A stretch of 64,000 nt of DNA from Fodinibius sp. Rm-B-1B1-1. GTDB lineage: Bacteria; Bacteroidota; Rhodothermia; Balneolales; Balneolaceae. The notes under the pieces were generated by a model. That model worked only from the letters and a program-made list of their open reading frames with translations, was not told where the DNA came from and searched no databases. Numbering within the stretch: the stretch's first letter is position 1; each line of letters starts with the position of its first letter. Where the stretch lies: the NCBI RefSeq assembly GCF_038594945.1, contig NZ_JBCFYD010000001.1, positions 372,001 to 436,000 of the forward strand, in the 5' to 3' direction. Positions 52,142-57,295 of the stretch are shown here, one piece after another. A program made the translations under genes and the position numbers.

Positions 52142-53092
52142 TTACCCTTCATTCTCTTTAATGATAAAAAAGCCATCATTGCCCTGATTCTGGTATAGGG
52201 GCATCAAAATATACCCATCCGTATGCGCAATAATTTTACCATCACTGTCACTGGCCAACCACTCTCCCTTTTTAATGGGTTGGAAGTTCGAATAACCCGG
52301 TCGCATTTTAAATTCATCACCTGGTTCAATAATATGTTGATACACTAACTCCGTTTCTACCGGCAGGTGTTTGGTGTGACTCCTCAAATGACGTTCAAAT
52401 TCTTTTATTTTTGCCACATACTGCTTCTCAATACATCCCACCGCATGCAGCAAAAGTAATAGTGAAGCTGTAATATTATATTCGGTGAGTTCATTTTCGT
52501 GCTGCCCCCCCTCCAGGCCAAAAGAAATAAAATCCTGCTGTTGATAGTAGCCCAAAGCCGTTCCGCGCAGGGACTTCTCAATCCCAAAAACCATAGGGAC
52601 GTGCAAGTTCGACAACAACCTACGCTGACGGGGATCGGTATTCGTAATACTAAACATATTACCCTCGGCCGAAAACGTATGAATATCAGCCAAAATAATT
52701 GGGCCGTCCGTCCCTCGTTCAATGCCATCCAGTACAGTGAGTAATTGCTTCATCTGTCGCCGTTCGCTGGACTCAATCTGAGCTTCAGGCGTATTCCGGA
52801 CCTGATCAATGATGGCCGGAAACCAAAGCCGATTCATATCCTCATCGATATACCGGACCTGGTGCTCTAATGCCGGTAAATTGGCTCGTAAAATTATGAG
52901 CCGGCCATTTATTTTGGGATAAATGCCATCCAGCATCTCAAAAATATTCTGCGCGGCATCCACTCCGGCATACTCATTGCCGTGTATGCCGGTTACTACT
53001 ATTACCGTAGGACCATCGGGATCACCTTCAATGGTTCCCAAAATCCTATTTTCTGCTTCCGTTTGTATGTTAGCTATTGTCGGACTCCTCAT
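52142..53092 (-). CDS. M14-type succinylglutamate desuccinylase/aspartoacylase-family hydrolase
   Basis: 316 residues. Zinc-site motif G-I-H-G-N-E (His and Glu ligands), the later His in A-D-I-H-T-F-S-A-E-G, and N-x-x-R-x-x-x-x-x-D-E-D-M-N-R near residue 85 fit the AstE/ASPA subfamily of M14 carboxypeptidases, which release acyl groups from acyl-amino acids. The Asp/Glu residues for catalysis are plausible but not checked. It is encoded immediately after the GCS2-CBS gene and overlaps its last 23 bases, so the pair is translationally coupled. Substrate unknown. Confidence 0.9.
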   Translation of the reverse strand: MRSPTIANIQTEAENRILGTIEGDPDGPTVIVVTGIHGNEYAGVDAAQNIFEMLDGIYPKINGRLIILRANLPALEHQVRYIDEDMNRLWFPAIIDQVRNTPEAQIESSERRQMKQLLTVLDGIERGTDGPIILADIHTFSAEGNMFSITNTDPRQRRLLSNLHVPMVFGIEKSLRGTALGYYQQQDFISFGLEGGQHENELTEYNITASLLLLLHAVGCIEKQYVAKIKEFERHLRSHTKHLPVETELVYQHIIEPGDEFKMRPGYSNFQPIKKGEWLASDSDGKIIAHTDGYILMPLYQNQGNDGFFIIKENEG

Positions 53093-55028
53093 TCGTATCG
53101 TTATTCAGATGCAAAGCTTTCAATAATCTACGAGCTATTTTCATATAATTTTGTTCCGTAATTATCCCAACGAGACGATTACTTTTAACCACCGGCAGAC
53201 ATCCTATCTTTTGGCTATCCATAATTTCCATTGCTTCTATAATAGACGCCTCCGGGTGAATAGTAATGGGGTTTTCAATCATAATATCTTCCACCGTCTC
53301 CATCACATCTTCGCTGTGATTTACAGACTTCGAATAGGCATTAAATACCATTCGCATCGTCACCAAACCCACAAGATGCTTCTTATCATCTTCCACCGGA
53401 ACATATCGGATGCGCCGCCAATCAATCAAATTAGCCGTAAACTCCAACAAATCATCTTTTTGCACAGTAAACAAATCCGTAGTCATAAACTCCTCCACAA
53501 TCAGGCTCGACGGCTCCCAGTGCTCTAAATCCTCCATACGTGCACGCCCCCATTTATGTACCGGTTCACCTTTTTTCTGATTTTTAATCATCGCCGTTGT
53601 TATCGCCGCCAACGTCTGCTCTTTGGATTTATGCTCCTTCATAAGTGCAGCGTAATTATCCAGCATCCAGTACGACGGCGTCTGCCCTTTGGTAACCCGC
53701 TGCTCAATAATTCCCAAATACTCCGTAATATCGGCGTCATCGATACCCGCTTCCTGCAATCCTTCTTTCGCAATAGGTAATAACTCCTCCGTAATTAAAT
53801 CTACCGCATTAATACGCTGATCATCGAACCAACGGAACTTGGTATCGAGTCCCATTTTTGAAGCCGCCACAAAATTCATGCGCGCATCATCAAAATCCAT
53901 CTCATCCGCCACATTGGGATGGTAATCCCCCATTTTATTCATCAACCCCAGCCAAAAAGCTGAATTAGCAACCTCATCGGTAACCGTTGGTCCCGATGGG
54001 CAAACCCTATTTTCGATACGCAGATGGGCCTTCCCATCAGTCACGCCATAGCAGGGACGATTCCAGCGATATACCGTACCATTATGCACTTGGAGAGCAC
54101 GCAACGCCGGCGGCGTACCCTCATCCAAAAGCTCCTCAACATCTTCAGTCACCTCAGAGCTAAGCATCACACGATATCGCGCCGTATCTTCCTGGAAAAT
54201 TTCCAAGATACTTTCATCGACCCACTCATTTCCAAAGGTTACACGCGGGCTACTTTCCCGCAGATGATCACCCACCGTACGTGTATCCACCGACTGCTGG
54301 AACAATGCTATCCGCGTTTCATTCCACAGCCGTTTCCCAAAAAGAATGGGTGATCCTACTGTTGAAGCCAGTACCGGTGCCGTAACAAGCTGCGCAATGT
54401 TGTACTTAGATACAAACTCACCGGGGCCTACCTGCAAGTGCACCTGAAAGCCAGTATTGCAAGCTTCCAAAAGGGGCGAATCAAACTTCATGAGCAGTTC
54501 ATCCATGCCCTGGATACGCAAATCATAATCTCCGCCACGCAGCTTCGTAATCGCCTGGCATAACGCCCGATAGCGCTGCAGAGGCGTCATATTTTTTAAA
54601 TCCACATCAACCTTTCGAATGGTTGGCAGTATCCCCGTCAGCAGTACCTCGGCTCCAAGCTCCTCTGTAACCGACCGTACCCTGTCCAGCTTCTGCTGTA
54701 GATCTTCTTCCATCAGGGATAAACAATTGCCCGTAAACTCAAGGGGCGCCATGTTAATCTCAAGATTAAACTTCGCAAATTCGGTCGTATAGGAACCGCT
54801 TTCCGCCTCCTGCAGTTTTTCAAGCACCTCCATATTATGCGGCCAGGCTTTGGCCTGCTGATTAACCAGGCAAAGTTCTTGTTCAGCACCAATACGAATA
54901 GGATCTGTTTCGAACCAATCCCCCTCATTTAACATGCGATCCAGCGCTCGTAAATCTTTAAGCACATACTTCATAAAGCGCTGTACTTCTTCCTGACTGT
55001 CAGCCAATTTTACCCTGGATTCACCCAT
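53070..55028 (-). CDS. GCS2-type glutamate-cysteine-ligase-like carboxylate-amine ligase fused to a CBS pair
   Basis: 652 residues. The first ~480 residues are a GCS2-like ATP-dependent amide ligase (I-G-A-E-Q-E-L-C-L, F-N-L-E-I-N-M-A-P-L, R-Y-R-A-L-C-Q-A, H-L-R-I-E-N-R-V-C-P). The last ~130 residues hold two CBS domains (F-M-T-T-D-L-F-T-V, I-M-I-E-N-P-I-T-I-H-P-E-A-S-I-I-E-A), which usually sense adenosine nucleotides. So a gamma-glutamyl-type ligase may be energy-gated. I use the ATG at 55028: AGAGGT is 5 bases upstream on the minus strand; a GTG two codons earlier is the alternative. The desuccinylase-like gene follows with 23 bases of overlap. Confidence 0.9.
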   Translation of the reverse strand: MGESRVKLADSQEEVQRFMKYVLKDLRALDRMLNEGDWFETDPIRIGAEQELCLVNQQAKAWPHNMEVLEKLQEAESGSYTTEFAKFNLEINMAPLEFTGNCLSLMEEDLQQKLDRVRSVTEELGAEVLLTGILPTIRKVDVDLKNMTPLQRYRALCQAITKLRGGDYDLRIQGMDELLMKFDSPLLEACNTGFQVHLQVGPGEFVSKYNIAQLVTAPVLASTVGSPILFGKRLWNETRIALFQQSVDTRTVGDHLRESSPRVTFGNEWVDESILEIFQEDTARYRVMLSSEVTEDVEELLDEGTPPALRALQVHNGTVYRWNRPCYGVTDGKAHLRIENRVCPSGPTVTDEVANSAFWLGLMNKMGDYHPNVADEMDFDDARMNFVAASKMGLDTKFRWFDDQRINAVDLITEELLPIAKEGLQEAGIDDADITEYLGIIEQRVTKGQTPSYWMLDNYAALMKEHKSKEQTLAAITTAMIKNQKKGEPVHKWGRARMEDLEHWEPSSLIVEEFMTTDLFTVQKDDLLEFTANLIDWRRIRYVPVEDDKKHLVGLVTMRMVFNAYSKSVNHSEDVMETVEDIMIENPITIHPEASIIEAMEIMDSQKIGCLPVVKSNRLVGIITEQNYMKIARRLLKALHLNNDTNEESDNS

Positions 55029-55236
55029 AGGCACCTCTGCATTAATTTATAGGTCTTGATCGTTTAAATAATCGAATTTATTGCACAGAATGCAAGCGTT
55101 CTTTACCTGTATCGCCTAACACATTTTGGATCCAAATAATTTTTAATATGAGTTTTTCTCTTGGTGAGACTTACTCTTTAACCCAGCTCTCCTTTTCCTA
55201 AATAGTTTACTGCCCTTTCAAACTTGAAGCCAATAA

Positions 55237-55295: not shown

Positions 55296-57077
55296 TCATT
55301 CCCAGAAAAGGGTCGGGTAGTCACTATCTACTGACTGCCAAATACTTACAAAATCAAATTCTGACATGTTAGTTTTAGCATTGCTACCAGTCATCTCTGA
55401 GGTAGTCAACCCATAATTGTATGAACTAAGACTGGTATTACCACCGGCTCCCTCTGCTTGTCCGGTACTTTCGGTATCCCAATAACAGTTCTGTACAACA
55501 CTATTCGTGTCATAATAAACCCCAATTAATCCTCCCAATGATGTGTTTCCTGCTGTTGAAGGTATTACCTCCCCGCTTGCATAGGAATAGGTTATACGTG
55601 TATCTGAACTATTGCTTCCAACCAAGCCTCCAACACGGTCCTTACCGGTCACTGTTCCCTTGGCATAAGATTTCTTCACGTGTCCGATATAGGAATCATT
55701 ATTATTGGTCATTTTACCTACCAGACCGCCAACATTATAAATCCCGGATACATTACCTATAGCATAACTATACTCGATGCTGCCCCAGTTGAGCCCAACA
55801 AGTCCACCGACATAATCCTCAATAGAAGTTACCGTAACATCGGCAAATGAGTTTTCAATACTTCCATAGTTATCACCAACCAATCCACCACATCTCCCGT
55901 CTGTACAATGAACCTTACCCGTTACCGATGAATTAGACACTTTTCCATTCTGATTAACCATACCGGCTAATCCCCCAGTTCCTCGGCCGCTTCCAGTTAT
56001 ATCTACATTTTCAAGTTTTATATTTCTTACCTCTACACCATCACCTATACTCACAAACATTCCTACGTTGTCATCACGATCAATAGTTAAGTCCGATATT
56101 ATATATCCCTGTCCGTCATACACACCACCAGATAAATATAGTGGCTTAAAACCCTTCCCAAGATTCCAACTTGCCGTTTCAGATCCGTCGATATCATCAA
56201 TTTGTACAAAATAATCTGAATTATATTCAGGGTTATCTATCGCCTGCAACTGCTCGATAGTCGAAATCTGAAAAGGATCTGCTTCTGTTCCCGTCCCCCC
56301 AGCGAATGGACTATCAAACACCGCGGTAATCATTTTTGCCGTATCTACCGTAATAGTAATAAGAGTATCAGTTCCAGAAATATCACCTTGCCATTCCATC
56401 AAAGACCACCCGTGAGCAGGATTAGCCTCAATCTCAACCGTTGAATTATAGAGGTACTCTTGCTGATCGGGATTCAATACTACTGCACCTGAACCGTCAG
56501 TAATGACATTAATTCCAAAAGACTTTTTCTCAAACAAGGCTGTTACTTCCTGAGGGTTTTCTACGGTAATTTGCACCGGATTTTCGGAGCCTGTTACATC
56601 ACCGGTCCATTCCACAAACTTATATCCTTTTGCCGGACTTGCAGTCAACTCGACAACGGTACCATGTTCGTACTCTTTGGATTGCTGCTCTACTATTTTC
56701 TCATTAACCGTACCCTCTCCTTCGGTATTGACCACCAGCTTATAGTTTTTCAGCTCAAAATTTGCGGTAATCGAATAGTCCTGATCTATCGTTAGCGAAA
56801 GTGGATTATCTGAACTTTCTATATCTCCCGTCCACCCAATAAATAAATACTCATCGTTGGCGTCAGCCTGCAGCTCTATCTGCTCCCCATCTTCATAGCT
56901 GTCGCTGGCAGAAGGAGAAATGGAACCACCTTCAGAAGGGGTTACCGTTACATCTAAATTATAGGTACTGGTTTCTTCATTATTTCCGGCCTCAGAATCT
57001 GGTCCCGTACCGTTACTACTGCAAGATATAACGGCAAGAGTAAAAAGTATGATGAATGTTTGTAACAGATATCTCAT
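55296..57077 (-). CDS. InlB-repeat/GLUG-motif surface lipoprotein
   Basis: About 593 residues. A lipoprotein signal ends in the lipobox V-I-S-C. Three divergent InlB B-repeats follow (about residues 40-275 of the mature protein), each with the pattern V-x-P-x-x-G..Y..G..V-x-L-x-A..G..F..W-x-G-D-x..N-P..I-x-V, three times W-T-G-D or W-Q-G-D. A loose region (F-A-G-G-T-G-T-E-A-D-P-F) leads to GLUG-type repeats (G-G-L-V-G, repeated at least six times). Such proteins sit on the cell surface as beta-solenoid adhesins. I take the ATG at 57077 because it starts the signal directly; an ATG at 57131 adds 18 residues. Confidence 0.87.
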   Translation of the reverse strand: MRYLLQTFIILFTLAVISCSSNGTGPDSEAGNNEETSTYNLDVTVTPSEGGSISPSASDSYEDGEQIELQADANDEYLFIGWTGDIESSDNPLSLTIDQDYSITANFELKNYKLVVNTEGEGTVNEKIVEQQSKEYEHGTVVELTASPAKGYKFVEWTGDVTGSENPVQITVENPQEVTALFEKKSFGINVITDGSGAVVLNPDQQEYLYNSTVEIEANPAHGWSLMEWQGDISGTDTLITITVDTAKMITAVFDSPFAGGTGTEADPFQISTIEQLQAIDNPEYNSDYFVQIDDIDGSETASWNLGKGFKPLYLSGGVYDGQGYIISDLTIDRDDNVGMFVSIGDGVEVRNIKLENVDITGSGRGTGGLAGMVNQNGKVSNSSVTGKVHCTDGRCGGLVGDNYGSIENSFADVTVTSIEDYVGGLVGLNWGSIEYSYAIGNVSGIYNVGGLVGKMTNNNDSYIGHVKKSYAKGTVTGKDRVGGLVGSNSSDTRITYSYASGEVIPSTAGNTSLGGLIGVYYDTNSVVQNCYWDTESTGQAEGAGGNTSLSSYNYGLTTSEMTGSNAKTNMSEFDFVSIWQSVDSDYPTLFWE

Positions 57078-57295
57078 AATTATTTTGCTTACGTTAATAG
57101 ATTTGTGAGGCATTAATCGCCTCTCATTCATTAATACGTAAAAGCCGAATTAAAAGGGTCAATTCTTGCTATTCAGATTTGCTCTCTGATATCCAAGAAG
57201 AGAAAAAGAGTTGTTGTAACTTTTTATAAAATTGCCCTTACTGAGATAGGATTAGAAAAACCGCTAAAAAAACTAAGCCCTGACTTTTTAAGCTT

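Follow-up and report, generated by a model that had tools for sequence, protein, structure and literature searches.

What do two overlapping genes do together when one of them should code for an enzyme that forms an amide bond and the other for an enzyme that cuts one? This question is raised by a 64,000-nt stretch (hereafter the window; positions 372,001–436,000 of contig NZ_JBCFYD010000001.1) of the genome of Fodinibius sp. Rm-B-1B1-1. On its minus strand, where all the features of the two genes given below are situated, positions 53070–55028 code for a GCS2-superfamily carboxylate-amine ligase bearing two CBS domains (652 aa, counted from the ATG; Pfam, alignments and hhalign), followed at 52142–53092 by the gene of an AstE/ASPA-type zinc hydrolase (316 aa; Pfam and predicted structure). 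An earlier note, made from the sequence alone, described a GCS2-type ligase with two C-terminal CBS domains, whose gene overlaps that of an AstE/ASPA-like hydrolase by 23 bases and lacks an adjacent gshB, and regarded both enzymes as a write/erase pair. The architecture was found as described. We show here that ligase and hydrolase constitute a conserved module whose association extends beyond one lineage, and give an even chance to the explanation that they are a two-gene amide-bond module, in which a CBS-modulated GCS2-type ligase would make, and the zinc hydrolase would cut, an amide of the gamma-glutamyl type.

The distribution of the two genes was examined in 296 genomes of the phylum, taken as Bacteroidota in the GTDB sense, with family f1 taken as Balneolaceae, as inferred in both cases from named records. 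The ligase search matched 201 of the 296 genomes at an E-value of 0.001, many via the CBS part alone, and only matches below 1e-60 were counted; the hydrolase was searched with profile A2, and the best match under the strong ones had an E-value of 1.2e-10. Tallied by hand from the match tables, as were the genomes with both genes and those with an adjacent pair, a GCS2-CBS protein occurs in 72 genomes, a CBS-less relative in 16 (family f23) and a strong hydrolase match in 49. The search for GCS2-CBS and hydrolase pairs, as proposed in the earlier note, yielded 47 genomes with both genes, which are adjacent in 42: all 36 from Balneolaceae, five from family f26 and one from f34. Adjacency was established from 40 stretches around GCS2 places and from 26 loci with the ligase in named records, and otherwise by match coordinates. 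Of the 49 hydrolase genomes, 47 also carry GCS2-CBS, against 72/296 overall (Fisher p = 1e-33, uncorrected for kinship). The association persists outside Balneolaceae (11/13 versus 36/260; p = 5e-9 by genome, also uncorrected for kinship) and when counted by family (4/4 versus 14/50; p = 0.004).

The two genes could nevertheless be functionally unrelated, their order simply reflecting the conservation of chromosome structure. In Balneolaceae, the arrangement priA - ligase - hydrolase - scpB - rluB (gene names assigned by eye) is indeed also a plain conserved chromosomal order, and the wider gene order is conserved too, which weighs against a functional reading. On the other side, the pair also occurs in f26 and f34 with different genes around it, f23 possesses a diverged pair of its own, both genes persist in genomes of family f29 where they are unlinked, and a different form of the hydrolase fills the slot in part of Balneolaceae. 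We thus consider the absence of any link distinctly unlikely.

Phylogenies (midpoint-rooted) bear on the last two of these points. In the ligase tree, the type A ligases of Balneolaceae group with those of f29 (99/97). The hydrolase tree unites the short forms of Balneolaceae with four f29 hydrolases from unlinked pairs (97/93), the fifth one (L114) being outside this tree. Both trees join f1 and f29, so the unlinked f29 genes share a history, and the f29 pair was retained as a pair although unlinked. Six loci (L043, L077, L081, L083, L084 and L088) contain a tandem of two types of GCS2-CBS, the second copy (type B) being 43–45% identical to the ligase domain of the window, ahead of a long-form hydrolase; in four further loci, a long-form hydrolase follows a lone type A ligase. 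The ten long-form hydrolases of Balneolaceae are separated from the short forms in the tree (96/100), so the hydrolase appears to have been exchanged in place in part of this family. The long forms (L054 9901–11070, among others) have a C-terminal extension of ca. 65–90 residues, which in L054 has no Pfam match. Genome G171 has a type A copy without an internal stretch and a whole type B copy; in L088, it is the first tandem copy that is devoid of an internal stretch. In family f23, the CBS-less ligase adjoins an AstE-type gene (PF24827, 39.2 bits, in L096); such a match or gene is next to the ligase in each of the 11 genomes examined out of the 16 (10 by profile match and one by locus listing).

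The ligase domain (53535–55028, ca. 498 residues, with a 3′ limit chosen by us from alignment A3, hhalign and Pfam) is only partially recognized by Pfam GCS2, which matched residues 49–164 with 29.7 bits (cut-off 21). The whole protein is far under the NCBIfam cut-offs for glutamate-cysteine ligases, YbdK and EgtA alike; for the glutamate-cysteine ligase equivalogs, the scores were 34.8 versus 409 bits (the best) and 24.3 versus 463.15 bits. A comparison by hhalign of A3, comprising 34 ligase relatives that include CBS-less f23 members, three actinobacteria and one haloarchaeon, with A4, a profile of nine YbdK-type sequences, gave a probability of 98.9 and an E-value of 1e-17 over 334 columns, indicating full-domain GCS2 homology. 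Against single sequences, A3 reached a probability of 3.7% with Escherichia coli YbdK and 0.8% with GshA; of two streptomycete frames, one reached 95% over 289 columns and the other 0.1%. An hmmsearch of the PDB with A3 produced no match at an E-value of 1, and a PDB search with the single ligase sequence retrieved CBS-region chains and one stray match outside (7eet, E-value 0.99), with no solved relative of the ligase domain.

The motif GAEQE (residues 47–51 in the ATG numbering; 54876–54890) corresponds to the GhExE motif described for the superfamily in PMC7947786. Residues G47, E49, E51, E83, E90, R152, H197, E237, R239, E339 and R341 are invariant in the 34 ligase sequences. In the profile comparison, GAEQE faces GIELE, the ENR of RIENR faces the EVR of YbdK, and the aligned pairs include E90/E60, R152/R115, H197/H138, E339/E237 and R341/R239. 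On this sequence evidence, the protein represents a divergent, separate GCS2 subfamily and looks catalytically intact by its expected residues.

A first possibility for the product is a thiol: the ligase could make gamma-glutamylcysteine, either on the way to glutathione or as the final product. The Pfam GCS2 match and the weak matches to NCBIfam glutamate-cysteine ligases are in line with this, and glutamate-cysteine ligases are found among the GCS2 enzymes. The best of these equivalogs, however, falls short of its cut-off by the wide margin given above, and there is no gshB beside the pair or over the TIGR01380 cut-off anywhere in the genome (97.72% complete), where the best score, 73.1 versus 299.05 bits, lies inside a RimK gene. 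Additionally, BshC, of bacillithiol synthesis, has a match in the own genome and in 291 of the 296 genomes of the phylum, and none of the five exceptions (G109, G156, G230, G237 and G238) is a GCS2-CBS genome. Bacillithiol is presumably the thiol of these bacteria, because BshC is present in the own genome, in 291/296 genomes and in every GCS2-CBS genome. A search for EgtA in two plasmid records gave nothing over the cut-off. Glutathione synthesis was thus rejected as the main role, in agreement with the earlier note, and a thiol enzyme is highly improbable, even though gamma-Glu-Cys may be a minor product of the ligase. The module occurs in more than one class of the phylum, nearly all of whose genomes have a bacillithiol gene.

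The hydrolase was matched by Pfam AstE_AspA_cat with 66.9 bits (cut-off 25), and its predicted structure is confident (pLDDT 88.9, pTM 0.87). In a fold comparison, AstE, DoeB, ASPA and CphZ chains came on top with Z-scores of 20–24, whereas M14 carboxypeptidases reached ca. 15–16; the top matches included 3cdx (Z 23.8, rmsd 3.7, 278 aligned residues), human ASPA (2o4h, Z 20.4) and CphZ (8eip, Z 20.4). The expected zinc site is complete in all 21 sequences compared: H37-x-x-E40 (52973–52984) would supply the first two zinc ligands and H138, in D136-x-H138 (52679–52687), the third, with E194 (52511–52513) as the expected catalytic glutamate. We assume these roles by analogy with the M14/AstE family. 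Residues R80, D85, N87 and R88 are also invariant in the 21 hydrolases. In the alignment they fall on human ASPA's RY..DLNR stretch, with which M14-like enzymes hold the leaving amino acid by its free alpha-carboxylate. By analogy, a gamma-Glu-amino-acid substrate would fit the hydrolase, as succinyl-Glu fits AstE.

The C-terminal part of the ligase matches Pfam CBS in two stretches (85.2 bits), and the two repeats form one module. CBS domain 1 (53337–53498, limits approximate) has T or S at residue 557 in 38 of 41 sequences, and CBS domain 2 (53139–53294) has T or S at 624 in 40/41 and D or N at 627 in 38/41 (ATG numbering). Taking [ST]xx[DN] as the CBS nucleotide motif, its presence in CBS2 and not in CBS1 would fit one nucleotide-type site and hints at nucleotide control. 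Some CBS transporters respond to ionic state.

Characterised GCS2 enzymes act on the gamma-carboxyl of glutamate. In the two-gene amide-bond module, the GCS2-type enzyme would then activate a carboxylate with ATP, most likely this gamma-carboxyl, and would join it to an amine with a free carboxylate, for example an amino acid. Activity of the ligase would be tuned by the CBS pair according to a small ligand, an adenine nucleotide or some other. The partner zinc hydrolase would cut the ligase product itself or something closely derived from it, and the two enzymes would together determine how much of the gamma-glutamyl-type amide is present. What we infer here is glutamate as acyl donor, the ligand of the CBS pair and the direction in which it regulates; a substrate common to ligase and hydrolase would likewise follow from their association and from the chemistry of the two families. 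The product of the module should be findable by knock-out metabolomics.

Several observations weigh against this explanation. A strong match to the hydrolase family of the window is missing from 25 of the 72 GCS2-CBS genomes, 22 of which belong to the window's own class (f2, f5, f6, f8–f11, f13 and f14). The ligase can thus work without the hydrolase, and the two do not form an obligatory couple; moreover, the genes are apart in five of the 47 genomes with both, all from f29. The write/erase pair of the earlier note is thus supported in part, as a conserved module, whereas these counts speak against a strict couple. The f23 hydrolase is on a very long branch, so that its tie to the hydrolase family of the window is tentative. 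CBS1 is devoid of the canonical acidic residue (D at 560 in 5/41), and the CBS pair is missing from the f23 and actinobacterial relatives, so it is dispensable for catalysis. Structure prediction of the fusion, also suggested in the earlier note, was poor for the ligase (AlphaFold2 from 22 sequences, mean pLDDT 52.8). The distribution outside the phylum was barely sampled, through one contig scan and the plasmid records. The contig scan gave 30 loci: the ligase is present in 26 of them, whose named records come mostly from Balneolaceae, and the four others are flavobacterial CBS-only matches; among 16 matched plasmid records, three actinobacterial and one haloarchaeal had a CBS-less ligase domain and 12 the CBS part only. 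Annotation around two of the actinobacterial relatives and the haloarchaeal one lists no AstE gene, the third actinobacterial record carrying no annotation at the locus, and a BLAST of the window hydrolase against open reading frames (ORFs) of at least 250 aa in the actinobacterial and haloarchaeal loci found none at 1e-5.

Other gene groups of ligase and hydrolase count in favour of the two-gene module and also bear on further explanations. In the own genome, where searches found one GCS2 place and two AstE-type places, a RimK ATP-grasp gene and the second AstE-type gene overlap over 8 bases, and a Zn_protease gene (PF05618) lies upstream (L110 4286–6616; G000:C2, about 1013285–1015615), which makes a second ligase-hydrolase unit. 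ATP-grasp partners, for which a search had also been proposed, were found as a GshB-like gene beside the hydrolase in the two genomes that have the hydrolase without GCS2-CBS (G053 and G273), together with a MATCAP gene (L118 2490–6358; L119 3026–6933). The hydrolase is on the same strand as the MATCAP group in L119 and on the opposite strand in L118, the latter being a further point against a coupled function. MATCAP genes occur in 15 genomes, 14 of whose loci were taken in (G234 was left out), and have no match in the own genome. In L122, the gene beside MATCAP is FGase (N-formylglutamate-amidohydrolase-type), and by eye 10 of 11 other loci are alike, L123 being the exception.

These groups bear on a role in protein or peptide tagging, in which the ligase would attach glutamate to a protein, at a side chain or terminus, for the hydrolase to trim, as in RimK or tubulin glutamylation. 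To our knowledge, all GCS2 enzymes described to date use small molecules as substrates, which argues against tagging. In its favour are the overlap of the AstE-type gene with RimK in the same genome, with the Zn_protease gene before it, and the position of the hydrolase next to MATCAP, a family that takes its name from a tubulin carboxypeptidase, in two genomes; PafA and Dop, of the same ligase superfamily, act on proteins, so protein substrates are possible for this superfamily (PMC7947786). We regard tagging as very unlikely.

The hydrolase could also act on something other than the ligase product, in a protecting-group or salvage route in which the ligase would gamma-glutamylate an amine to allow its processing or retention and the hydrolase would later deglutamylate a different, processed intermediate, in the manner of PuuA/PuuD. 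The presence of both in one unit with an optional hydrolase would suit alternative last steps, but no oxidase-, dehydrogenase- or aminotransferase-like gene lies between or beside the pair among the window neighbours examined by eye, and we find this route rather unlikely. A bolder version of the two-gene amide-bond module is a ligand-gated write/erase cycle, in which the CBS pair would switch the GCS2 ligase by nucleotide or ionic state and the AstE-type enzyme would remove an undescribed gamma-glutamyl metabolite, enzymes of its type acting throughout the phylum as general erasers for GCS2-CBS, GCS2 without CBS, RimK and GshB-like ATP-grasp ligases. We propose it tentatively, as possible more than probable. 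If true, one hydrolase family erasing the products of several unrelated amide ligases would give a rule by which orphan ligases could be matched with orphan hydrolases, and a CBS-regulated GCS2 enzyme would be directly testable.

The overlap of the two genes spans 23 bases (53070–53092) at the 3′ end of the ligase gene, whose stop codon is inside it, and the 5′ end of the hydrolase gene. Across 36 adjacent-pair loci, including that of the window, and with mechanically assigned ORF starts, the junction varies from -77 to +272 bases, 17 of them being between -4 and +10, and the overlap was rejected as a special feature. The ligase could also start at a GTG at 55034 (ORF 53070–55034), although the ATG at 55028 (MG...) is common to most relatives. 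By eye, the genes next to the pair are scpB-, rluB- and alpha/beta-hydrolase-like at one end and lipoprotein-like and priA-like at the other; neighbourhood listings covered ORFs of at least 80 aa. The lipoprotein-like ORF (611 aa; window 55296–57131), between the priA-like gene and the ligase, has repeated GGLVG-type segments (by eye), and a relative is at the same place in L036 and L041 and not in L032 and L033.

GCS2 ligases, AstE-type hydrolases, CBS modules and gene groups of amide ligases and hydrolases are each already known. Among the matches listed in a literature search, no paper dealt with a GCS2-CBS fusion or a GCS2/AstE pair, although the amidoligase survey of Iyer et al. 2009 (Mol Biosyst) may describe such operons; it is cited in PMC4431377 for operons joining ATP-grasp and COOH-NH2 ligases. 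The window ligase resembles the YbdK-type GCS2 ligases (PF04107; E. coli YbdK and haloarchaeal or actinobacterial records named glutamate--cysteine ligase) in GxExE and the other aligned positions, and differs from them in its larger domain (ca. 498 versus 372 residues in E. coli YbdK), in a QxHxQ that replaces the HxHV of the nine YbdK-type sequences, in the C-terminal CBS pair and in its scores under the curated equivalog cut-offs. The PuuA/PuuD cycle, in which a gamma-glutamyl putrescine amide is formed by a ligase and removed by a hydrolase of one operon, differs from the window pair in its GS-type ligase, its class I amidotransferase-like hydrolase and its adjacent catabolic genes. The RimK - AstE - Zn_protease group shares with the pair an amide ligase and an overlapping AstE-type gene, but its ligase is an ATP-grasp without CBS match and that of the window is GCS2-type, so the window pair falls outside the RimK-AstE module. 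Similarly, the MATCAP - GshB-like ATP-grasp - FGase group combines a ligase with an amidohydrolase, contains a window-family hydrolase in two genomes, and differs in its ligase fold and its additional MATCAP gene. The window hydrolase shares its predicted fold and zinc-site residues with the AstE/aspartoacylase family (PF24827, including CphZ), and differs from the AstE and aspartoacylase enzymes proper in being far under both equivalog cut-offs (43.7 versus 305.65 bits for AstE TIGR03242; 49.1 versus 180 bits for aspartoacylase NF002601). Within this family, AstE-annotated enzymes from cyanophycin synthetase clusters are dipeptide hydrolases according to PMC10206079, which provides a precedent for an AstE-type enzyme degrading the product of an amide ligase.

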